Positions 22,045-32,640 of a DNA stretch of 52,701 nucleotides are shown in pieces; positions within the stretch are counted from its first letter, which is position 1; every line of letters starts with the position of its first letter. The notes under the pieces are model-generated. The model was not told where the DNA came from. It saw only the letters and a list, made by a program, of their open reading frames with translations, and ran no database searches. The position numbers and the translations under genes were made by a program. This DNA comes from an uncultured Lachnospiraceae bacterium (GTDB lineage: Bacteria > Bacillota > Clostridia > Lachnospirales > Lachnospiraceae): assembly GCA_947652925.1 (NCBI GenBank), contig CANTEW010000015.1:1-52701 (forward strand), read 5' to 3'.

Positions 22045-23079
22045 ATGTATCGAAAACCTTTGACAAAATTGTTCATCGTGATAGGGTCTCTGTGTACTGC
22101 ATTTGCGCTCGTGTGCTGTACGATCGCTTTTGTGCGCATGTTCCTGGCCAGCAGTGAGACGAGAAAAGGCCAGGAGACTTTAGAGGCGCAGATAGAAGAG
22201 ATGGAAGAGATGAAAAAAGAAATAAAAAAAGCTGAAAAGAGAGAAAAGAAAAGGCTGGAGGAAGAAGAGGAGAAGATCAAACAGGAACCGGAGGAGACAC
22301 CGTATGTCCATCCCAGTAAAACGCCCACGCCCACTGCCAGCCCCACGCCCACACCTCTGTCTTCCAATGAGGAGGGGACAGTGAGCGGCCCTTCTGAAAA
22401 TAAAAGGGAAGAGAGGGAGCAGGCGGCGACAGGCACAGGCCACGTGGTGGGGATCGACCCCGGGCATCAGGGTCCCCATGTGGATATGAGCGACACGGAG
22501 CCCAATGGACCTGGCTCGACAGAGATGAAGGCGAAGGCTACCGCAGGTACTTCCGGGGCGTATTCAGGGCTGGGTGAATACCAGCTGAACCTGGATGTGT
22601 CTTTGAGAGTGCAGCAGATCCTGCAGGACCGGGGGTATCGTGTAGTGATGACAAGGACCGACAATGACACAGCGATCAGCAATGCGGAGCGGGCGTTGCT
22701 GGCGGCGGACGAGGGGGCGGAGATCTACGTGAGGATCCATGCGAATGGCTCTGACGACCATGGCGTCCAGGGGGCGCTCAGCATGTGCCCGTCGCAGGAC
22801 AACCCCTATGTATCGGAATTGTACGGGGAGAGCCTGCGTCTTTCCCAGGGGCTTTTGGATGCTTATTGTGCTGCCACTGGTTTTGAGAATAGGGGCGTGC
22901 AGTTTTACGATAATATGACAGGGATCAATTGGAGCCGGGTCCCGGTCACGATCCTGGAGATGGGATTTATGACAAATGAACATGATGACCTGGCGATGGC
23001 CGATGCCGGATTCCAGCAGACGATGGCTGAGGGGATCGCAGACGGGATCGATGCGTATTTTGCAGGGTCTGGCCAATGA
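22045..23079 (+). CDS. N-acetylmuramoyl-L-alanine amidase (Amidase_3 type), membrane-anchored
   Basis: A 344-residue zinc amidase that cuts the bond between N-acetylmuramic acid and the stem peptide of peptidoglycan. A membrane helix covers residues about 9-35. Residues 40-90 are a charged coiled coil rich in E and K, and 90-130 is a P/T/S-rich linker. The catalytic domain starts at 137. It has GIDPGHQG with the zinc histidine at 141, a GEYQLNLDV glutamate, RIHANGS, and VTILEMGFMTN with the catalytic glutamate. ATG 22045 follows AGGAGG by five bases; ATG 22041 is out of frame. The next gene, 17 bases away, has a similar anchored layout, so the two probably act together outside the membrane. 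Confidence 0.93.
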   Translation: MYRKPLTKLFIVIGSLCTAFALVCCTIAFVRMFLASSETRKGQETLEAQIEEMEEMKKEIKKAEKREKKRLEEEEEKIKQEPEETPYVHPSKTPTPTASPTPTPLSSNEEGTVSGPSENKREEREQAATGTGHVVGIDPGHQGPHVDMSDTEPNGPGSTEMKAKATAGTSGAYSGLGEYQLNLDVSLRVQQILQDRGYRVVMTRTDNDTAISNAERALLAADEGAEIYVRIHANGSDDHGVQGALSMCPSQDNPYVSELYGESLRLSQGLLDAYCAATGFENRGVQFYDNMTGINWSRVPVTILEMGFMTNEHDDLAMADAGFQQTMAEGIADGIDAYFAGSGQ

Positions 23080-23096
23080 TGGGGAGGTTGTGAGCG

Positions 23097-24185
23097 ATGG
23101 ATAAGGAAAAGATCTATAAGATGATAGCCCTGGCCATGTCCGGGGTGGCAGTGCTGTTCGGTGTATTGTTCCTTGTTTTTTCTGTGGGATTGAGCAGCCT
23201 GAACAAGAATGTCCGTTCCCTGGAGGCGATGCTGACAGATGCGGTAAAAGAGAATGCCCAGCTGAAAACAGAGATCAAAGCATTTGAAGATAAACCGGGA
23301 GATGATACAAAGAGCGATGGGGATGGAGGAGAGTCAGACGGCGGGGACGGGCAGGCGGAGAACGCAAAAGATAAAAAGGGGGAAAAAGATAAGGAGACAG
23401 ATGCAGACATCCTGGAGGAAGAGGAAGGTCTCAGCCCCAGTGAGGAAAAAGAAGGTGTGGCGGATCTGACCATCTTGGAGGAACAATTGGATGATATGCT
23501 CGCCCAGGCCAGGGAAGCGGCGGGCGGCAGATGGTCGGTGCATATCAAGAACCTGAACTCTACCATCTTTACAGAAAGGGACGACAGTCCCATGCGGGCG
23601 GCCAGCCTGATCAAGTTATTTATCATGGGAGCTGTGTACGAGCAGTATGAGAATTTATGCCAGGCAAACGGCAAGGAAACGGTGGACCAGTGCTTGAATA
23701 TCATGATCACAGTCAGCGACAACAATGCGGCCAACCAACTGGTCACCATGCTGGGGAACGGAGATTCGGCTGCAGGCCGGCAGGTGGTCTCCGCGTACTG
23801 TGAAGAACATGGCTATCTGAACACCAGCATGGGCAGGATGCTCCTGGAGGAGAGTACCACGGGGGAAAACTATACGTCTGTGGGCGATTGCGCAAAGTTC
23901 CTGGAGACGGTGTATCTGAAAGAATTTGAGCACTGGGAGGAGATGCTGGGACTCCTTAAGGGCCAGCAGCGGCGAAATAAGATCCCGGCTCTGATCCCCG
24001 AGGGTGTGGAGATCGCCAATAAGACCGGGGAGCTGACGGGCGTGGAGGATGATGTGGCGATCGTCTTTGGGGATAAGAATCCTTATATCATATGTTTTAT
24101 GACAGACGGGCTGACGGACAGCAGCGTGGCGGTGGAGTGTATCGCGGAGATGTCTGGGAATATATATGGTTTTTTTAATCAGTGA
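23097..24185 (+). CDS. Anchored class A beta-lactamase-fold serine hydrolase
   Basis: A 362-residue penicillin-binding-fold hydrolase. A membrane helix (residues about 8-30) is followed by a short coiled coil and a very acidic, low-complexity linker (about 60-120). The catalytic domain shows SLIK at 170-173 (S-x-x-K), SDN at 207-209 and KTG at 309-311, the three active-site motifs in the right order. I see no clear ExxLN omega-loop motif of true class A beta-lactamases, so it may act on peptidoglycan peptides or serve as a lipoprotein-like carboxypeptidase; resistance should not be assumed. It probably shares the promoter at 21968 with the amidase. The ribosome site is GGGAGG. Confidence 0.85.
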   Translation: MDKEKIYKMIALAMSGVAVLFGVLFLVFSVGLSSLNKNVRSLEAMLTDAVKENAQLKTEIKAFEDKPGDDTKSDGDGGESDGGDGQAENAKDKKGEKDKETDADILEEEEGLSPSEEKEGVADLTILEEQLDDMLAQAREAAGGRWSVHIKNLNSTIFTERDDSPMRAASLIKLFIMGAVYEQYENLCQANGKETVDQCLNIMITVSDNNAANQLVTMLGNGDSAAGRQVVSAYCEEHGYLNTSMGRMLLEESTTGENYTSVGDCAKFLETVYLKEFEHWEEMLGLLKGQQRRNKIPALIPEGVEIANKTGELTGVEDDVAIVFGDKNPYIICFMTDGLTDSSVAVECIAEMSGNIYGFFNQ

Positions 24186-24215
24186 ATCTGATCGGCTGAA
24201 AAATATGTCTACCCA

Positions 24216-24244
24216 TTGATTTAATATCTGGTCAGCGTTATAAT
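24216..24244 (+). promoter_or_regulatory. Sigma-A promoter of the STM4015-4011 cassette
   Basis: TTGATT at 24216-24221, a 17-base spacer and a perfect TATAAT at 24239-24244. It lies in the 89-base gap after the serine hydrolase and starts transcription near 24251, leaving a short leader of about 24 bases. This makes the five-gene cassette a separate transcription unit. Confidence 0.85.
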
Positions 24245-24274
24245 CATCCTATAACGAGGAGGAGGTCATTTACG

Positions 24275-25132
24275 GTGAAGTCAAAACTATATGTATATGA
24301 TTACGATGCGTACGAAGAGGACGGCAAAGGACCGGATACGATGGTCGCGGATATCCTGGCGGATCCAGAGTTCCCAGGGCTTGAGGAGGTGCGGATCGGG
24401 AGCTGGGGGAGTGCGTATGAGGAGTGCTGCCAGCCTATCATAGACAACATGGTGGCAAATGCAGGGCGTTTCTCCCATATCCAGAGATTATTTATCGGGG
24501 ATATGGATTATGAGGAGTGTGAGGTCTCCTGGATCAAGCAGGGGGATTACAGTGCTCTCTGGGGAGCTATGCCGCAGCTTAAAGAGCTGACGATCAAGGG
24601 TTCTGAAGAGTTGGTATTGGGGGATGTCTGCCATGAAGGGCTGGAATCTCTGACGATCATCTGCGGAGGGCTCCCGGTGTCTGTCATGGAGGCAGTGCAG
24701 AGAGCCCGGCTCCCCCATCTGAAAAAACTGCTCCTTTACATCGGCAGTGATTATTATGGGTTTGATGGAGATAGAGACACAGTGAGGAAGATGCTGGCAG
24801 AGGCGGACTTTCCCAGCTTAGAGTATCTGGGGATCACGGACAGTGAGATCCAGGACGAATTGGTGGAAGTTGTCCTGGAGAGCAAGTATATGGGACAGAT
24901 ACGCACATTGGACCTGTCTGCCGGGACTCTGACGGATAAGGGAGGGGCGCTGCTCCTGGAGAAGATCCCCGCGTATCCCAATATAAGATCCCTGGATCTC
25001 CATTATCATTATCTCACAGATGAGATGATGGAGAGATTGTCGGAGCTTCCTGTGGAAGTGGATGTGTCGGAGCAAAATGAACCGGATGAGTATCATGGCG
25101 ATATCTGGATGAACGCCATGTTGACAGAATGA
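24275..25132 (+). CDS. STM4015 family LRR-like protein
   Basis: A 285-residue protein whose pattern matches leucine-rich repeats: LEEVRIGSWG, IQRLFIGDMD, LKELTIKGSE, LESLTIICGG, LKKLLLYIGS, LEYLGITDSE, IRTLDLSAG and IRSLDLHYH, each separated by 25-50 residues. I recognise it as the STM4015 family, the usual first or last member of a five-gene set. It has no catalytic motif, no signal peptide and no membrane helix, so a binding or scaffold role in the cytoplasm is likely. The start is GTG 24275, nine bases after a strong GAGGAGGAGG. Its stop overlaps the start of the next gene (ATGA). The family role is unknown; it may bind the substrate of the other four proteins. Confidence 0.8.
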   Translation: MKSKLYVYDYDAYEEDGKGPDTMVADILADPEFPGLEEVRIGSWGSAYEECCQPIIDNMVANAGRFSHIQRLFIGDMDYEECEVSWIKQGDYSALWGAMPQLKELTIKGSEELVLGDVCHEGLESLTIICGGLPVSVMEAVQRARLPHLKKLLLYIGSDYYGFDGDRDTVRKMLAEADFPSLEYLGITDSEIQDELVEVVLESKYMGQIRTLDLSAGTLTDKGGALLLEKIPAYPNIRSLDLHYHYLTDEMMERLSELPVEVDVSEQNEPDEYHGDIWMNAMLTE

Positions 25133-26157
25133 GACAGATCATCCTTTTGGGGGACCCTGGGACAAAACGGGCGGACTATTTTCAAAGAGCGGCGGCCCAG
25201 GCCGGGGTCCCTTTTTGTCTTTGGGAGTGGGACAGCCGGCGGAGGACCGGCTTTTCCTGTTTTTCGGAGCTTTTGGGAGAGAGTTTTGTCAAGATCGATC
25301 CGCCTTTGTGGGGATCCAGTGATCTGGACGAGCTGCCGGTATATGTGAACGGTTATCGGCGGGATCTGACGAGATTGGCCAGGCTGTCTGAGACGTGCAG
25401 TCTTTCCTTTCTGAACCATCCCAGTGCGATCATGGATGTGCTGGATAAAAAGGGATGCAAAGAACGTCTGCTGCAGGCGGGCATCCCAGTCACGGAGTCA
25501 TTGGGGGCCGTGTCCGGCGATACAGAGCGACTGATCGGGCAGATGAGGGAGGAGAGAGCTTTCCAGGTGTTCATCAAGCCCAGATATGGTTCCGGTGCGG
25601 CCGGGACAGCGGCTTTCAGGTACTGTCCGGGAAACGGCCAGGCGGTCCTTTACACGTGTGCTGCCCTGGAGCCGCAGACGGGGCATCTGGTGAATACGAA
25701 ACGGCTGCGGCGGTATGTACACAGGGAGGAGATCCTTCCCCTGCTGGATCGGATCTTGGGAGCGGATCATGTGGTGGAGCGGTGGTATCCAAAAGATGGC
25801 CGCGAAGGATATTCTTATGATCTGCGGGCTGTGGTCCAGGATGGACGTATAGACTTCCTTTTGGCCAGGCTCTCGAAAGGACCGATCACCAATCTGCACC
25901 TGGGCGCCCGCCCCCTGCCTGTTGAGGCGCTGGGTCTCTCTGCGGATGTTTTGGAGAATATCGCAGATCTGTGTGAAAAGGCGATGGACTGTTATCCTGG
26001 ATTGAGGAGTGCGGGGATCGATCTTCTGTTGGAAAAGGGGAGCCGGCGTCCCAGGGTGATCGAGATGAACGGACAGGGTGATCTGATCTATCAGGATATC
26101 TATCAGGAGAACCGCATCTATCGCCATCAGGTGGAGATGATGGGAGGGTACCAATGA
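25129..26157 (+). CDS. STM4014 family ATP-grasp-like protein
   Basis: A 342-residue protein with an ATP-grasp-like layout. An N-terminal domain (1-110) precedes a lid region with VFIKPRYGSGAAGTAAF near residue 147, where the lysine and glycine-rich turn would bind ATP. The C-terminal part has DLRAVVQDGRIDFLLA and then GIDLLLE and RVIEMNGQGDL near residues 300-322, resembling the metal-binding acidic and asparagine residues (ExN). ATP-grasp enzymes join a carboxylate to an amine, thiol or hydroxyl through an acyl phosphate. I recognise the sequence as STM4014-like. It overlaps both neighbours by four bases. The substrate is unknown; ligation of an amino acid is one option. Confidence 0.78.
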   Translation: MRQIILLGDPGTKRADYFQRAAAQAGVPFCLWEWDSRRRTGFSCFSELLGESFVKIDPPLWGSSDLDELPVYVNGYRRDLTRLARLSETCSLSFLNHPSAIMDVLDKKGCKERLLQAGIPVTESLGAVSGDTERLIGQMREERAFQVFIKPRYGSGAAGTAAFRYCPGNGQAVLYTCAALEPQTGHLVNTKRLRRYVHREEILPLLDRILGADHVVERWYPKDGREGYSYDLRAVVQDGRIDFLLARLSKGPITNLHLGARPLPVEALGLSADVLENIADLCEKAMDCYPGLRSAGIDLLLEKGSRRPRVIEMNGQGDLIYQDIYQENRIYRHQVEMMGGYQ

Positions 26158-26963
26158 GGACATCGGTGGATATGTCGCAGATCGTGGGGAGCCATGATAT
26201 CTTATTGATCTGTCTGGATACTCTGCGGTATGATGCGGCGGTCCAGGAGGAACAGGCAGAGGGGACGCCGGTCCTGAACAGGTACGGGCGGTGGAAAAAG
26301 TGCCAGGCCCCGGGGAATTTTACTTATCCTTCCCATCACGCCATGTTTGCAGGATTCCTGCCCTGTCCCTATGGGATCAAACGTATGGAAGACCGGGAAC
26401 TCTTGTTTTTCCCTTCCCATATAGGACTGGGGCGCAAAGTCCCGGAAGGGGCCTATGGGTTTTCCGGCAGTACGGTCATGGAAGGGCTGGAGAGAGTGGG
26501 TTACGATACCTGGTGTGTGGGCGGCGTCTCTTTTTTTGATAAACGCTCGGATATGGGAAAAGTGTTCCCAAGTTATTTTCAGAAAAGTTACTGGAACCCG
26601 TCTTTTGGCTGTAAGGTGAAAGAGAGTACGGCAAATCAGGTGGATCTTATCCTGAAAAAAATATCTGCCGCAGAAGGAGAGCGTCCTATATTTCTCTATC
26701 TCAATGTGGATGCCATCCATGAGCCTGATCATTTTTATCTGGATGGCTGCGTGCGGGACTGCCTGGAGAGCCATAGAGCGGCGCTCAGATATGTAGACGG
26801 GCAGCTGGGACGTCTGTTCCATGGATGGAAAGAGAAACGGGGCAGTACGTTCGTGATCTGCTGTTCTGACCACGGGACCTGCTATGGGGAAGACGGCTTC
26901 TGGTCCCATGGGGTGGACCATCCGGCGGTACTGACGGTCCCCTACAAACATTTTTTCTTATGA
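26154..26963 (+). CDS. STM4013 family alkaline-phosphatase-superfamily hydrolase
   Basis: A 269-residue protein of the sulfatase/alkaline phosphatase fold. The metal-binding landmarks are LDTLRYD (D22), FTYPSHH (T57, S60, H61), VDAIHEPDHF, CSDHGTCYGE near residue 240 and WSHGVDHP after it. The C-x-P-S-R formylglycine motif of true sulfatases is absent, and threonine 57 sits where a phosphate-type nucleophile would be. A phosphomonoesterase, phosphodiesterase or phosphotransferase role is therefore more likely than sulfate release. No signal peptide is seen, so it should act in the cytoplasm. It matches the STM4013/SEN3800 hydrolase family by its motifs and by its place in the cassette. Its ATG overlaps the previous stop (ATGA). 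Confidence 0.8.
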   Translation: MRTSVDMSQIVGSHDILLICLDTLRYDAAVQEEQAEGTPVLNRYGRWKKCQAPGNFTYPSHHAMFAGFLPCPYGIKRMEDRELLFFPSHIGLGRKVPEGAYGFSGSTVMEGLERVGYDTWCVGGVSFFDKRSDMGKVFPSYFQKSYWNPSFGCKVKESTANQVDLILKKISAAEGERPIFLYLNVDAIHEPDHFYLDGCVRDCLESHRAALRYVDGQLGRLFHGWKEKRGSTFVICCSDHGTCYGEDGFWSHGVDHPAVLTVPYKHFFL

Positions 26964-26980
26964 TCATGGTGGAAGGACAG

Positions 26981-28321
26981 ATGATGGATCCTTATCTTCA
27001 ATATATGTACAGTTATCCGCATAAAACGGCATATGGGCCTTTGGAGGGTGTCTCTCTCTGGGACCACACCGAGAGATTGTCAGGCTCTGGGTTGAGCCTA
27101 TATCTCCATGTGCCTTTTTGCCAGACAAAATGCGGATATTGTGATCTTTTTTCCGTTACAGGACAGGGGTCTGAGGAAGTGGATCGTTATCTGGATGCGG
27201 TGGAGCGGCAGGTCTTGCAGTATGGACAGGTGCTGGACTCTTGCGGGGCGGAGTTTTCGGATCTTACCATAGGGGGCGGTACGCCGCTCCTTCTGGATGA
27301 AAGGCAGATAGATCGGGTATTTTCCATGCTGGATCGGAACATCCGTTTTCAGCGTGCCCCGGGGATCGTGGTGGAGACGGCTCCCAATCAGACGACGAAA
27401 GGGAAGCTGGGGCTTTTGAGACAAGCCCATGTGACCAGGGTCAGTATGGGTGTGCAGAGTTTCTCAGACCGGGAGCTTGCGGCTCTCTGGCGGCACCACA
27501 GTGCGGATAGGGCAAGGCAGGCGCTGGACCTGTTGAAAGGATATGGTCTTCCCTGTATAAACGTAGACCTCATCTATGGCATCCCCGGGCAGACGGTGGA
27601 TTCTTTTCTGCGCACATTGAAGGAAGCGCTGGCCTATGAGCCGGATGAGCTGTTCATATATCCGCTCTATGTGAAACATGGGGCCGGACTGGAGCGGCAG
27701 ATGCGGGAGGGGATGGTGCTGGATCCGGGAGCGGCGTTCTGTCAGTATCAGGAGGGCAGCCGCTTCTTACGGGCGGAGGGCTTCAGGCAGGTGTCCATGC
27801 GGCGGTTTGTGCGCCAGGGCGGACGACAGGTGCCGGAGTGCGGTTTTTCTACTTCCCTTGCCCTGGGGTGTGGAGGGAGGAGTTATGTGGGGACTCTGCA
27901 TTTCTGCACACCCTATGCGATCACCCAGGAGACGTGTCTGGAGCAGATCCAGAGATTTGAGGAGAGGGCGGATCATACGGTCATCGATCATGGGATCTTT
28001 CTCTCGGCGGGAGAGGAAAAGCGCAGGTATGTCATCCAGCACCTGTTCATCTATCCGGGACTGGATCTGGAACAGTATGCAGAGAGGTTTGGGAGTTCTC
28101 CGATGGAAGATCTTCCGGTGCTGGAGAGATGGCGCAGGGAGGGTTTCCTTTCGGTCAGAGAGGAGACATCCCGGGCCTTCCTGGCATTGACGGAGTCGGG
28201 GCTGGGACTTTCGGATCATCTGGGTCCCCAGCTGATCTCTCCGGAGATATACGAGAAGATGGAGAGATGGGAGGTGTGCCATAAAAATGATCCTTTACAG
28301 GGGCAGTCTGAAGAGCTGTGA
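26981..28321 (+). CDS. STM4012 family radical SAM protein (HemW-like)
   Basis: A 446-residue radical SAM protein. SLYLHVPFCQTKCGYCDLF holds the 4Fe-4S cysteines at residues 47, 51 and 54. GGGTPLLL, VSMGVQSF, NVDLIYGIPGQT and ELFIYPLY follow as in HemW and coproporphyrinogen dehydrogenase relatives. A C-terminal domain of about 120 residues contains LFIYPGLDLEQYAERFG, as in the HemW C-terminal region. I placed the start at 26981 because GGAAGGA lies just upstream; an ATG at 26960 overlaps the previous stop but has no ribosome site, and 26984 is also possible. Genomic context argues against a plain heme role: it is embedded in the STM cassette. The reaction is unknown. Confidence 0.85.
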   Translation: MMDPYLQYMYSYPHKTAYGPLEGVSLWDHTERLSGSGLSLYLHVPFCQTKCGYCDLFSVTGQGSEEVDRYLDAVERQVLQYGQVLDSCGAEFSDLTIGGGTPLLLDERQIDRVFSMLDRNIRFQRAPGIVVETAPNQTTKGKLGLLRQAHVTRVSMGVQSFSDRELAALWRHHSADRARQALDLLKGYGLPCINVDLIYGIPGQTVDSFLRTLKEALAYEPDELFIYPLYVKHGAGLERQMREGMVLDPGAAFCQYQEGSRFLRAEGFRQVSMRRFVRQGGRQVPECGFSTSLALGCGGRSYVGTLHFCTPYAITQETCLEQIQRFEERADHTVIDHGIFLSAGEEKRRYVIQHLFIYPGLDLEQYAERFGSSPMEDLPVLERWRREGFLSVREETSRAFLALTESGLGLSDHLGPQLISPEIYEKMERWEVCHKNDPLQGQSEEL

Positions 28322-29723
28322 TCAAAGCTGTATATACTGTCCTTTTTCTAAACAGAAGAGTTCTGTGAGAGAGTTGGAGCGGGATCGGGCGCAGTGGCTG
28401 CGTTTTGTAGAGAGCCTGCCGGAGAGAACGAAAGCCCTGGATGTCCACGCTCTGATGGTCGTCCCCTACGGTGAGGCCCTGCTCCATCCCTGGTATTGGG
28501 AAGGGCTTGCCAGGCTCAGCGGGATGGAGTGGATGGAGGCGGTGGGAGCGCAGACCAATCTGAGCTTTTCTGTGGAGGGAGCTTTGGGGACCTATCTTGG
28601 AGCGGGAGGCCAGGTGGGAAAACTGCGTCTCTGGGCCACATTCCACCCGGAAATGGTCTCTGTGGAGGCCTTTGCCGGAAAATGTGCGCAGATACAGGAG
28701 GCGGGTGCGGCGCTCTGTGTGGGTGCGGTGGGTGTGCCGGAGGGACTGGGAGCGATCCGTCGGCTGAAGGAGGCACTGCCGGAAGGGATCTATCTCTGGA
28801 TCAATAAGATGGACGGCCTGAAACGTTCTTATACGATGGAGGAGAAAGAGGCATTTTTAGATATAGACCCTTATTTTGGCCGGGAGCTGGCATGCCCGCC
28901 CAGTGACGCCTCCAGATGCCGGGGACGTTTGTTTGTGGAGGGGGATGGGAAGGTGCGTGCCTGTAACTTGAGCCTTCCATACGGAGTCGGTCAGTACACA
29001 TGGCAGGAGCCGCCGCCCATGCCAAAATGCAAGAGACGCGTATGTTCCTGTTATCTGGCGTATGGAGGGCGGGATGACCCGATGAATACCATTTTATTTG
29101 GGAGATATCCGTTGTTTCGGATCCCCCGCCGTCTGCGGGCTGTTTTTTTTGATATAGACGGTACGCTGATCCCGAGAGGTGGATCCAGTATCCCAGCTCA
29201 TACGGCGGCAGGCCTGGCCGGGCTGGCGAGGGAAGGCGTATATCTGTTCTTTGCCACCACGCTGCCCTATGGTGAAGCCATGGAGCGCTGCAGAGGATAC
29301 AGACATCTGTTTGCAGGCGGGGTCTTTGCGGGCGGAGCACATATCCGGCTGGAAAAAAAGGATGGGGTACGGGAAAAGTTTTACTGTTTTGACGGTGGGA
29401 TCCGTCACCATCTGGAAGGGGCTGCCCGGACACTTGTCTATCGGAGCGGGGAAGGGGTCTATAAGATGACCTTGCTGCGTCCCCGCCGCCGGCCGTGGGA
29501 AGAGCGGGAGGCGGCGGGGATATGGGAGGCGGTGCCCGCGTCCTGCCGGGGATCTCTGCGGTATTTTCTGGAGGGATCTTGTATGCAGATCGTCTCGGCA
29601 GAGGCAGACAAGGCGACGGGTGCGTCTATTCTCTGCCAGTGGCTTGGGATCCCCCTCTCTGAAGCGGCGGCAGCCGGGGATTCCAAGGAGGATGAGGGGC
29701 TGCTGCGCTTTTTCGGAGCATGA
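28287..29723 (+). CDS. STM4011 family radical SAM protein fused to a HAD phosphatase
   Basis: A 478-residue fusion. Residues 1-280 are a compact radical SAM domain: C11, C15 and C18 in SCDQSCIYCPFSK bind the cluster, and later cysteines (CPPSDASRC, ACNLS, CKRRVCSCY) could hold an extra cluster. Residues about 283-478 are a Cof-type HAD domain: DIDGTLIP with D289 and D291, an FATTLPYG threonine, a lysine in EADKATG, and GDSKEDEG near the end. All four HAD motifs are present, so phosphatase activity is likely. The family members I recall are about the length of the first part, so the HAD addition is notable. It overlaps the STM4012 gene by 35 bases and closes the cassette. Confidence 0.82.
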   Translation: MILYRGSLKSCDQSCIYCPFSKQKSSVRELERDRAQWLRFVESLPERTKALDVHALMVVPYGEALLHPWYWEGLARLSGMEWMEAVGAQTNLSFSVEGALGTYLGAGGQVGKLRLWATFHPEMVSVEAFAGKCAQIQEAGAALCVGAVGVPEGLGAIRRLKEALPEGIYLWINKMDGLKRSYTMEEKEAFLDIDPYFGRELACPPSDASRCRGRLFVEGDGKVRACNLSLPYGVGQYTWQEPPPMPKCKRRVCSCYLAYGGRDDPMNTILFGRYPLFRIPRRLRAVFFDIDGTLIPRGGSSIPAHTAAGLAGLAREGVYLFFATTLPYGEAMERCRGYRHLFAGGVFAGGAHIRLEKKDGVREKFYCFDGGIRHHLEGAARTLVYRSGEGVYKMTLLRPRRRPWEEREAAGIWEAVPASCRGSLRYFLEGSCMQIVSAEADKATGASILCQWLGIPLSEAAAAGDSKEDEGLLRFFGA

Positions 29724-29818
29724 TGTCAGAGCGTGTTTGAAAACCTCAAATATCGTTAAATCACAACGGATTTACAGATAATAGATGAGTACATTCCAAA
29801 AACAGCGTTTTAAGGGGT

Positions 29819-29843
29819 CCGGGGGAAATCCGCAATCCCCCGG
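29819..29843. repeat. GC-rich hairpin
   Basis: Seven perfect base pairs (29819-29825 with 29837-29843) close an 11-base loop. It follows the radical SAM-HAD gene by about 95 bases. No T-run follows on the plus strand, so it is not a simple terminator; it may be part of an interspersed repeat. Confidence 0.6.
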
Positions 29844-29851
29844 CGCTTTTG

Positions 29852-29874
29852 GTACTTTTCTCGCAGAAAAGTAC
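29852..29874. repeat. Near-perfect palindrome with 10-base-pair stem
   Basis: GTACTTTTCT (29852-29861) and AGAAAAGTAC (29865-29874) pair perfectly around CGC. It sits nine bases after the GC-rich hairpin. The pair resembles intergenic repeat elements I recall from Clostridia genomes, but copies elsewhere cannot be checked here. Confidence 0.65.
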
Positions 29875-30075
29875 ATAGAAAAAAATTGAGTAGCCGCGGA
29901 TTGTATCAAATTCTTGTAAAATTCAAGATATTTACAGAATTTTTAAGGTTTTAAAATATACTTTAGACAAAATTCTGACAGCGATATAGTGGCATCGGAT
30001 AGAAGTTTTAATGACGCAATGGTGTGGGTCAGGCAAAGCAGGACTCTAATTTCTGGCCGGATGGAGTACTAGAGA

Positions 30076-30104
30076 TAAAAAAAAGAGGAGATCAGCTCTC
30101 CTCT
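30076..30104 (-). terminator. Terminator of the efp transcript
   Basis: AGAGGAGA (30084-30091) pairs with TCTCCTCT (30097-30104). On the minus strand the stem is followed by a run of eight T at 30083-30076. It ends the efp-aroK operon, and could weakly stop plus-strand transcription from the cassette. Confidence 0.9.
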
Positions 30105-30122
30105 CTTTTCTATGCAACAAGA

Positions 30123-30680
30123 TCATGCTCTGGATAGATATTCCCCTGTCCTGGTGTCGATCTTGATCTTATCGCCCCGGTCCACGAACAGAGGGACATT
30201 GACAGTGGCTCCAGTCTCCACGGTGGCAGGTTTTGTGGCGCCCTGGGCGGTATCTCCCTTGAAGCCCGGCTCTGTCTCTGTGATCTCCAACTCTACGAAC
30301 AGGGGCGGTTCTACAGCGAATACATTGCCGTTGTAGGAACACACTTTTAACATGTCGTTTTCTTTTACAAATTTCAGAGCGTCCCCGATCGTCTCCTGGT
30401 TTAATCCGATCTGTTCATAGGATGTGTTATCCATGAAGTAATATAATTCTCCGTCGTTGTACAGATACTGCATATCCACACGCTCGATCCGCGCAGCCGG
30501 GAATTTTTCTGTAGGGCGGAAGGATTTTTCCAGAACTGCCCCTGTGATGATATTTTTATACTTTGTACGCACGAAAGCGGCGCCCTTTCCTGGCTTTACA
30601 TGCTGGAATTCGACGATCTGGACCACATTTCCATCGATCTCCAGAGTCACACCATTTTTAAAATCTCCTGCTGAAATCAT
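30123..30680 (-). CDS. efp: Translation elongation factor P
   Basis: A 185-residue protein of normal EF-P length. It enters stalled ribosomes between the P and E sites and helps form bonds between prolines. The three beta-barrel domains are recognisable: [17 protein letters not shown] at the start, KPGKGAAF with the tip lysine at residue 32, and the C-terminal [17 protein letters not shown] motif. Lysine 32 is in the place where the residue is modified in many bacteria; no modification gene is seen nearby. It lies 29 bases after aroK, with AAGGAGGAG ahead of its ATG. Confidence 0.98.
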
Positions 30681-30709
30681 TTGTATCTCCTCCTTATTAT
30701 AGATATTTA

Positions 30710-31258
30710 TTATATATGACTGTTGCTCTTCATTAAATATTGGCTCTCAAACATCTCGCATTTAATGTGGATCTCCCGGATCAGCTTTTTCATGGGCTGT
30801 TGGGCGGTGACCACAGTGACATCAGCCAGCTTTTCATAGACGGGTTCCCGTGTCTGCAGCATCTTGCGGATCTTTTCTTCCATGTTGCTGCCTGCGAGCA
30901 GAGGACGGCTGTGATCCCCTTCCAGCCGTTTTTGCAGAGTTTCTGCAGATCCTTTCAGATAGACGATGGTCCCTAATTCTTTTAGGTATTTATGGTTCTG
31001 TTCCTGCATGGGCAGACCACCCCCGACAGAGATGACTGCCCTCTTTTCCATCTGACGCAGTTCTTTGATCGTCTTGGTCTCTAATGCACGGAAAAAGACT
31101 TCTCCAAATCGGTTGAAGATATCGGTGACACTCATCTTCATCTCGCTGGTGATCTTCTTATCTACATCGATGAATGCATATCCCGCTTCTTCGGCCAGAC
31201 GTTTGCCTGTCTTGGTCTTCCCGGATCCCATGAACCCGATCAGCACAATGTGTCTCAT
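30710..31258 (-). CDS. aroK: Shikimate kinase
   Basis: A 182-residue P-loop kinase that phosphorylates shikimate on its 3-hydroxyl in aromatic amino acid synthesis. [11 protein letters not shown] is the Walker A loop, DVDKKI near residue 32 carries the shikimate-binding aspartate, RALETKTI the conserved arginine-glutamate, GGGLPM the second substrate loop, and RPLL the lid arginine. It overlaps the transporter-HAD gene by four bases and precedes efp by 29. It is a few residues longer than the usual family length at the C terminus. Confidence 0.95.
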
Positions 31259-32640
31259 CTTATGTTTTCCCCCTCTTGTTCCTTGTAAAAATGCAACACG
31301 ATCTTCTCCAGGTATCTTTTTAAAATGATCTGTATCTCTTCTTTTGGATGGATGGGCTTTACCAGGATGCTGCGGATACCGGCTCTCTTAGCGCCGTAGA
31401 TATCTGTAAAGATCTGATCCCCGATAAACAGGGTGGTGTCCCGGTCCGTGTCCATGAGTTCCATGGCTCTGATGTAATTAGCGGTGGAGGGCTTGTGGGC
31501 ATCCTCGATAAAATGGCCGCCGATGGATCCATGGAAAGACTGCACCCGCTCCAGATGGTTGTTGGAGAGCAGACAGCTCTCAAATCCGATCTTGCGGAGC
31601 CGCTCAAAGAGCTGGACCGACCTGGCGTCGGCTGGTTTCCCGTGGGGGACCAATGTATTGTCGATATCAAAAAGGAGCCCCCGGTATCCTTCCTGGTAAA
31701 AACGCTCATAGTCGATGTCGTAAGCAGAATCCATGTAACTGTCTGGAAAAAAGCATGCAAATACCTTTGAGAGAAAGGAGAGCTTTGTCTCAGACAGCAG
31801 CACGGCAAAGAATAAAAGCCCGCATCCGATCATCATCCGCGGTGTCATCCGTTCACCCAGTAAAAGGGCTGAGAACAATACGCCGAAGACAGATTCTGTG
31901 GACAGAAGCAGAGATGCCGTGTTAGGGGATGTGTATTTCTGGCACACATTTTGCAGCAGAAAAGCCAGCATTGTGCTGAAGATCCCCAGATAGAGCATGG
32001 AACCGATCACGTCCGGACGAAAGATATCCGTTGGGAGACCCCCGTCCACGAGCGGCGACAAAAGCCAGGAAAACAGTGCGGCAAAGGCCAGCTGGAGTAC
32101 GGTCAGGACGACTGGGTCGTCCTGTTCGGTATAGCGGTCGATGTAGATCATGTGTAAGGCAAATCCTACTGCACAGATCAGAGTCAGGATATCCCCCCTG
32201 TTCACAGACATATCTCCCTGCAGGGATAACAGTCCGATCCCCGCGATGGCAAAAAACGCTGCCGCGATACAGAAAGAGTCGGGTCTTTTCTTGGACAGCA
32301 GCCAATAGAGGAAGGGGACGAGTACAACATAGGCAGATGTGAGGAATGCATTTTTTCCTGCCGTTGTGTACTGGCAGCCGATGGTCTGGAGCAGGTAGCT
32401 GAAAAACAGCCAGCATCCTAAAACGGCTCCTTCTTTAACGGTATGTTTTTTTAGTCCCTGCAGTCTTTTGGCGCATATCAGAGCCAGCAGGACTGCGGCG
32501 ATCGTAAAGCGGAAAGCCAGCATGTATGTGGGCGGGACAGTGTCCAGAGAGTTTTTGACCACAACGAAGGCGATCCCCCAGATGGCGGCTGTCCCGAGCA
32601 TTCCTGCCCCTGCAAGGGATTTTATCTTATTTTCACTCAT
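31255..32640 (-). CDS. EamA/DMT transporter-YqeG-type HAD phosphatase fusion
   Basis: A 461-residue fusion. Residues 1 to about 295 form a ten-helix drug/metabolite transporter with two EamA repeats; the first starts GMLGTAAIWGIAFVVVKNSL. Residues about 310-461 are a YqeG-like HAD-IIIA phosphatase: RGLLFDIDNTLVPHG with D325 and D327, CLLSNN, a lysine in DAHKPST, and FIGDQIFTDIYGA. YqeG proteins are normally separate, about 170 residues, and cytoplasmic. The N and C termini should both be inside the cell, so the phosphatase would hang below the transporter. It overlaps both neighbours by four bases. The frame reads through without interruption, so a sequencing join is less likely than a true fusion. 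Confidence 0.88.
   Translation of the reverse strand: MSENKIKSLAGAGMLGTAAIWGIAFVVVKNSLDTVPPTYMLAFRFTIAAVLLALICAKRLQGLKKHTVKEGAVLGCWLFFSYLLQTIGCQYTTAGKNAFLTSAYVVLVPFLYWLLSKKRPDSFCIAAAFFAIAGIGLLSLQGDMSVNRGDILTLICAVGFALHMIYIDRYTEQDDPVVLTVLQLAFAALFSWLLSPLVDGGLPTDIFRPDVIGSMLYLGIFSTMLAFLLQNVCQKYTSPNTASLLLSTESVFGVLFSALLLGERMTPRMMIGCGLLFFAVLLSETKLSFLSKVFACFFPDSYMDSAYDIDYERFYQEGYRGLLFDIDNTLVPHGKPADARSVQLFERLRKIGFESCLLSNNHLERVQSFHGSIGGHFIEDAHKPSTANYIRAMELMDTDRDTTLFIGDQIFTDIYGAKRAGIRSILVKPIHPKEEIQIILKRYLEKIVLHFYKEQEGENIR

Follow-up and report, generated by a model that had tools for sequence, protein, structure and literature searches.

In the LysW/LysX and ArgW/ArgX systems, an acidic carrier protein that ends in glutamate is loaded by an ATP-grasp enzyme, and later enzymes act on the tethered group (available text of PMC10433800 and PMC9303977). 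LysW ends in EDWGE, and LysX loads the final glutamate with an amine; loading of the C-terminal glutamate of ArgW was shown by mass spectrometry and a mutant (available text of PMC10433800). Carriers of this type keep side reactions from occurring and use charge to guide enzymes, and the enzymes that act on them make charge contacts with the acidic carrier (available text of PMC9303977). The same text describes the pearlin and 3-thia-amino-acid pathways (TglA, TmoA), in which the product is built on the C-terminus of a gene-encoded carrier, in one case with a radical S-adenosylmethionine (SAM) enzyme. Here we analyze a five-gene cassette, STM4015-4014-4013-4012-4011, in a stretch of 52,701 nucleotides from an uncultured Lachnospiraceae bacterium (contig CANTEW010000015.1 of assembly GCA_947652925.1; this whole stretch is called the window). 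We find that the leucine-rich repeat (LRR) protein encoded by the first gene, STM4015, has a near-invariant C-terminal glutamate and is strongly acidic, two properties newly found here. We tentatively favor, at a little under an even chance, a reading in which the cassette encodes a biosynthesis or modification pathway centered on the STM4015 C-terminus, with the ATP-grasp protein STM4014 loading the last glutamate and radical SAM and hydrolase steps following. Loading of STM4015 in the manner of LysW and ArgW is a proposal.

STM4015 is related to a solved structure, PDB 2RA8 (E 4.5e-102), a relative that went unmentioned in the preliminary description of the locus, which was made from the letters alone. 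Eight additional residues appear to follow the C-terminus in 2RA8, so the solved protein may lack a free terminal carboxylate. Its architecture is an LRR body followed by an acidic linker of varying length and a tail that ends in glutamate. Glutamate is the last residue in 128 of 129 distinct STM4015 copies, giving a terminal-residue entropy of 0.07 bits. This count omits repeat sub-loci (L131-L146, L151, L152), open-ended open reading frames (ORFs), copies with low scores and duplicates over the last 120 residues. It likewise excludes the window copy and L001-L004, of which the window, L002 and L004 copies also end in MLTE. In the sole copy without the glutamate, L091, two in-frame stops occur shortly before a stretch reading ALLTE (L091 and L098 were excluded from alignment A2). 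Position -2 is threonine in 106 of the 129 and otherwise glycine, serine or alanine, and position -3 is leucine, valine or isoleucine in 128, both with an entropy of about 1.0. In the other four cassette proteins the final residue varies (2.45 to 3.79 bits). Taken together, this pattern suggests that the neighboring enzymes add to, or assemble something on, the STM4015 tail.

The terminal glutamate is not an artifact of gene overlap, since 82 of the 83 copies without an ATGA overlap also end in glutamate and 33 copies encode it with GAG (GAA in the other 95); overlap as its cause can thus be ruled out. The tail is kept in named records from Salmonella, Methylobacterium, Streptomyces, Embleya, Nonomuraea, Deinococcus, Bacteroides and Calothrix. 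Additional STM4015 copies occur in stretches without the enzyme genes on two Embleya replicons and in Streptomyces cadmiisoli, where they have VAE, VSE or VAE-like ends, and these replicons have a cassette elsewhere. On a Calothrix plasmid (L124, 2014-3288), a longer STM4015-related LRR protein ends in RYCSVAE, and 4011 and 4013 are absent from that plasmid. The acidity of STM4015 is pronounced, with a median net charge of -31 across 130 sequences, against -4 to +4 for the four enzymes.

STM4015 is likened to LysW in operating principle and is not itself a LysW, as fold, size and tail differ. The two share a C-terminal glutamate (128/129 in STM4015). However, LysW is a zinc protein of about 54 residues with zinc-binding cysteines and the EDWGE tail, whereas STM4015 is an LRR protein of 285 residues, and its tails read, for example, AMLTE or RYVAVGE. 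The partner enzymes differ as well, in that STM4014 falls below the LysX cut-off and the cassette has radical SAM enzymes and none of the LysX-pathway enzymes. In the pearlin pathways a PEARL enzyme appends cysteine, whereas here an ATP-grasp protein is present and no PEARL-type gene is found among the five. Cysteine addition by PEARL enzymes is tRNA-dependent.

The features of the cassette in the window are as follows; bit scores are for the NCBIfam model named.

24216..24244, plus strand: promoter-like TTGATT-17-TATAAT, 10/12 consensus matches
24256..24265, plus strand: ribosome-binding-site-like GAGGAGGAGG, 9 bases 5' of the GTG start at 24275, read from the sequence
24275-25132, plus strand: STM4015 family LRR protein gene, 285 aa, proposed carrier or substrate (NF038076, 323.5 bits, cut-off 275)
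25106..25129, plus strand: codons of the STM4015 C-terminal tail WMNAMLTE, with Glu285 the last codon at 25127-25129 (terminal glutamate in 128/129 distinct homologs)
25129-26157, plus strand: STM4014 family ATP-grasp protein gene, proposed ligase (NF038074, 323 bits, cut-off 175)
26154-26963, plus strand: STM4013/SEN3800 family alkaline-phosphatase-superfamily hydrolase gene, with Thr57 at the nucleophile position (NF038075, 375.7 bits, cut-off 250)
26960-28321, plus strand: STM4012 family radical SAM gene, HemN-like, CX3CX2C at C54, C58 and C61 (NF006067, 487.4 bits, cut-off 380)
27002..27034, plus strand: codons of the conserved STM4012 N-terminal motif Y15-Y25 (YMYSYPHKTAY), aligned to the HemN N-terminus
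28287-29723, plus strand: complete STM4011 gene, radical SAM plus HAD-IIB (NF038073, 268.9 bits, cut-off 200)
28287..29132, plus strand: STM4011 radical SAM domain, CX3CX2C at C11, C15 and C18 (NF038073 above cut-off; cysteines kept in 84/84)
28917..29051, plus strand: additional STM4011 cysteines C211, C226, C248, C253 and C255, a possible auxiliary Fe-S site (alignment of 84)
29136..29723, plus strand: HAD-IIB (Cof-type) domain fused to STM4011 (Pfam Hydrolase_3, 4.7e-11)

All five window proteins exceed the curated cut-offs of their own NCBIfam families, so that the cassette is a direct member of the STM4011-STM4015 set to which the preliminary description had assigned it. The described arrangement of five same-strand genes joined by overlaps also holds, with three ATGA stop-start overlaps and a final overlap of 35 bases between STM4012 and STM4011. 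Overall, the observation of the cassette was confirmed and its interpretation, as a modification route with the LRR protein as binder or substrate, was partly supported. The near-consensus promoter said to drive the genes fared less evenly. The site is present and is the top-scoring of seven promoter-like sites in 22500-31500, but shuffles yield 6.8 (standard deviation 2.5), and the scan by itself proves nothing because the number of sites is much like that of shuffles. Both hexamers and the 17-base spacing are kept in the closest relative (L043, 4015 82% identical), where the flanks differ; the hexamer pair was not seen at the same place in the other 10 loci of the alignment on unsystematic inspection by eye. 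The ribosome-binding-site-like stretch before STM4015 was rated strong.

To what extent are the five genes kept together? A scan of species genomes gave 488 relatives, of which the best 80 were retained, representing 79 loci; this sample leans to close relatives because only the best 80 of 488 were retained. The order 4015-4014-4013-4012-4011 is present in 67 of the 79 loci, bearing out the earlier statement that the families travel together. Of the remaining 12, three are on contigs classed as too short and nine are split, rearranged or broken. For six of these 12 we searched the whole genome. The 4013 and 4011 genes both lie outside the fetched stretch, elsewhere in the genome, at L066, L071 and L072; 4011 is on a different contig from 4013 at L075 and just past the end of the fetched stretch at L077. 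The sole case among the six genomes in which the whole-genome search found neither 4013 nor 4011 is G440 (L121), a metagenome-assembled genome. A broken cluster thus still leaves the genes in one genome, an argument for a single pathway. At L071 (genome G1133), 4015-4014, 4013 and 4011 occupy three distant places on one contig. STM4014 was above cut-off in 29/29 of the genomes bearing full-length STM4015 among 31 tested.

The distribution of the cassette is patchy. STM4015 is found in 3/291 genomes of the class, counting the window's own, which has one copy, and it is above cut-off in 25/348 genomes of a Bacilli sample and 1/345 of a Bacteroidota sample. STM4012 is above cut-off in 3/150 genomes of the window's family, again with the window's genome counted. 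The full gene order appears in annotated plasmid records from Salmonella, Paenibacillus, Methylobacterium, Streptomyces and Deinococcus, and the cassette genes are in a different order in a Bacteroidota genome (G875). A contig from a viral collection (L122) carries the complete cassette, in order. In Bacteroides (L041, 5882-6955), STM4015 has an N-terminal WGR domain, and the 4013 and 4012 genes are only fragments. No E. coli genome among 5426 had at least 80% of the Salmonella cassette by megablast, a search in which diverged copies would be missed; 94 of the 5426 had a short match, within a Cof-type HAD gene.

STM4014 is the candidate loading enzyme. Its conserved residues are like those of ATP-grasp enzymes, with K107, K150, E217, D231, R233, R247 and N255 invariant in 57 sequences and E312 and N314 nearly so; conservation was taken from alignment A3, and a mixed-length MAFFT alignment showing little conservation was set aside. 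The non-self family matches of its members are MptN (50/57), RimK (39/57), CofF (18/57) and LysX (10/57). In the window protein, RimK scores 28.1 of 143.4 bits and LysX 25.8 of 275.6 bits, both below cut-off. The earlier proposal that the LRR protein binds or is the substrate and that the ATP-grasp protein ligates is strengthened by these matches and by the near-invariant STM4015 glutamate.

STM4012 had been called HemW-like. By family score, HemW is indeed next-best after its own family, but among solved structures the nearest is HemN. STM4012 aligns to HemN (1OLT, E 4.5e-57) over residues 14-432, including the N-terminal segment, and to the class C radical SAM methyltransferase NocN (E 1.9e-34) over the radical SAM core. 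It differs from HemN and NocN in having its own equivalog family, whose cut-off it exceeds, and its own invariant N-terminal motif, Y15-Y25. It scores 161.4 bits against a cut-off of 205.4 for HemW (TIGR00539) and 143.5 against 324.95 for HemN (TIGR00538), and is also below the cut-offs of HemZ and HutW. Neither radical SAM protein reaches the NCBIfam cut-off of any heme or tRNA pathway family, a placement that the preliminary description had named as contrary to its reading.

STM4011 was first read as a small radical SAM protein. The radical SAM domain is present, but the protein also contains a fused HAD-IIB domain at about residues 284-478, which that reading missed together with a set of extra conserved cysteines. 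The CX3CX2C motif, C211 and C226 are found in 84/84 sequences, and C248, C253 and C255 in 78, 79 and 79 of the 84; five rows end early there and one has serine at 248. Although these cysteines are conserved, Pfam SPASM matches only 6/50 members. Weak profile matches include viperin-like proteins (46/50), tungsten-cofactor maturase (19/50), NrdG2 (18/50), sulfatase maturase (14/50) and the radical SAM/SPASM peptide maturase PapB family (6/50), and weak solved-structure matches are to SkfB (E 0.016) and BtrN (E 0.18). At least 47 of the 67 complete loci have this fusion of HAD to STM4011: 43 were recognized by a two-sequence hidden Markov model and four (L111, L113, L114, L116) by Pfam. In the Salmonella record (L035), the Cof-type HAD is a separate gene. 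As the fusion is not seen in Paenibacillus, we regard HAD as accessory. At L065 (12820-13647), an additional HAD-like gene, recognized by eye from a DYDGT motif, lies between 4013 and 4012, besides the HAD fused to 4011.

STM4013 matches Pfam Sulfatase and Phosphodiest. D22, T57, H189, D215, D239, H240 and H252 are conserved in 85/85 aligned copies, and the aspartates and histidines are of metal-ligand type. As first described, the protein lacks the sulfatase C-x-P-S-R motif; the window copy reads T57-Y-P-S-H at that place. A formylglycine sulfatase (C/S-x-P-x-R) is ruled out, since Thr57 stands in place of cysteine or serine in all 85. Two plasmid loci carry STM4013-type genes in other company. 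Agrobacterium plasmids have a distant relative (28.6% identity; L040, Ti plasmid pTi-SAKURA, 8001-8837) with no other cassette genes in the stretch shown, and on a plasmid of Streptomyces albidoflavus, STM4013 follows an IS5 transposase gene and has no annotated cassette partners (L042, 7756-8792).

These features can be assembled into a pathway in which each reaction, and the release step, is conjectural. STM4015 would serve as a folded acidic LRR carrier or substrate that presents a short glutamate-ended tail on an acidic linker. STM4014 would activate the carboxylate of the last glutamate and join an amine to it, probably an amino acid or an aminated metabolite. The tethered adduct could then be altered by STM4012, through oxidation, decarboxylation or methylation as in HemN- or NocN-like enzymes, and by STM4011, whose extra conserved cysteines recall peptide-modifying SPASM/Twitch enzymes. 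For STM4013 and the HAD domain, a possible role is the removal or transfer of phosphate groups. A carrier or substrate that is used through its last glutamate accounts at once for the tail, the acidity of the protein, the neighboring ligase and the additional copies. Whether the cassette further represents a separate carrier strategy is a claim we hold with more doubt, as possible at about a one-third chance: a full-size LRR protein would be the carrier, an ATP-grasp ligase would load its C-terminal glutamate, two radical SAM enzymes would carry out carbon-centered chemistry on what is tethered there, and replicons with several STM4015 copies would use a single enzyme set for several carriers.

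Several observations weigh against loading of the last glutamate. Lachnospiraceae or Bacilli relatives supply most of the 129 STM4015 copies, which therefore do not count as independent events. Every non-self STM4014 match falls below the cut-off of the family concerned; Pfam favors ATPgrasp_ST (53/57) and YheC/D-like ATP-grasp (42/57) over RimK (just 4/57); the top solved-structure match, D-Ala-D-Ala ligase, is weak (E 0.016); and LysX and RimK are absent from the 11 solved-structure matches. For these reasons, the placement of STM4014 near the glutamate-acceptor ligases RimK, MptN, CofF and LysX is a lead and not a membership. No peptidase is conserved beside the cassette among the neighbor clusters of 93 loci, leaving no product-releasing candidate there, and no transporter or exporter is conserved in the same clusters. 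The tail could also be a docking signal only. This last idea belongs to a reading in which a small-molecule pathway uses the LRR protein as a scaffold or adaptor, with a tail that docks on an enzyme and stays unmodified. Motifs at a C-terminus can serve for docking, protein binding is common among LRR folds, and the ATPgrasp_ST matches of STM4014 are to a sugar-transfer-associated ATP-grasp. Yet a docking peptide would rarely require a final glutamate in 128/129 copies while its neighbors vary, and several copies per replicon would be more usual for carriers or substrates; we judge this scaffold role unlikely.

We consider it similarly improbable that STM4015 is the end product, with the cassette installing a permanent C-terminal modification, such as an added amino acid that is then oxidized or methylated, so that the modified LRR protein acts. 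Given that no peptidase is conserved beside the cassette, the modified LRR protein may itself be the product. The same tail evidence, the lack of a conserved transporter, the several STM4015 copies in some replicons and the WGR fusion in Bacteroides are all in keeping with this, but the modified protein has no candidate role and the phosphohydrolase-type enzymes suggest metabolite chemistry. Those missing neighbors count differently for a pathway resembling ribosomally synthesized and post-translationally modified peptides, in which the tail would be a core peptide that the radical SAM and ATP-grasp enzymes alter before it is cut off, as neither a protease nor an exporter is conserved. ATP-grasp enzymes do make graspetides, and STM4011 weakly matches the PapB family and anaerobic sulfatase maturase. 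However, only the last tail residue is near-invariant, with no fixed serine, threonine, lysine or tyrosine partner, and MvdC and MvdD each weakly match 1/57 STM4014 members. Macrocyclization of the graspetide type is disfavored on the same grounds, namely the missing hydroxyl or amine partner and the MvdC/MvdD counts, and we regard the peptide reading as distinctly improbable. Least credible of all is known heme or tRNA chemistry, with STM4012 no more than HemW/HemN or a tRNA-modifying enzyme. STM4012 is a clear homolog of HemN and HemW, but it falls below their cut-offs and above that of its own family, is kept with four unrelated genes, and shares its genome with other HemW-like genes, for example on contig 6 at 67539-68690 (probably HemW). 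Family cut-offs and gene company rule out heme chemistry and tRNA modification.

The surroundings of the cassette vary. No neighbor is widely conserved, the largest neighbor cluster being found in 18/93 loci at scattered positions (mechanical ORF calls). Upstream in the window (22045-24185) are genes for N-acetylmuramoyl-L-alanine amidase-like and beta-lactamase-enzyme-family proteins, with no visible relation to the cassette. A DUF6745 gene and a gene for a protein of about 100 residues adjoin the cassette in five of the eight annotated plasmid loci that carry it (L037 4504-5829, L038 3168-4632, L039 11015-12312, L129 14044-15353 and L130 14100-15421). The DUF6745 proteins of all five loci also share a conserved C-terminus, Y-x-P-x-x-E-T/A. 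No riboswitch was found before the cassette in the window and 15 loci; a flavin mononucleotide (FMN) riboswitch at L083 sits after it. As a candidate for anti-phage defense, the cassette gained no PADLOC match for four of its proteins and a single weak, partial one for STM4012 (PDC-M51A, 28.6 bits).

STM4013.S is listed with other sigma-54 binding sites in a table of PMC3844500, and a Salmonella gene table in PMC2784778 has STM4015 as a "hypothetical protein". The families had been described at the outset as lacking an assigned function, and literature searches on gene and family names indeed found none. No paper was found that names 2RA8 or Q64V53. Nor was one found that combines radical SAM, leucine-rich repeat and ATP-grasp, which is weak evidence, as most subscription journals lie outside the search. 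The five families are thus annotated in genomes of several phyla without a function found in print. The last glutamate of STM4015 provides a single testable residue, which makes the role of the cassette directly addressable by mass spectrometry. If this glutamate is loaded, the cassette would add a carrier of a new kind and place radical SAM chemistry in a new setting, with unknown products made by gut commensals, soil bacteria and Salmonella.

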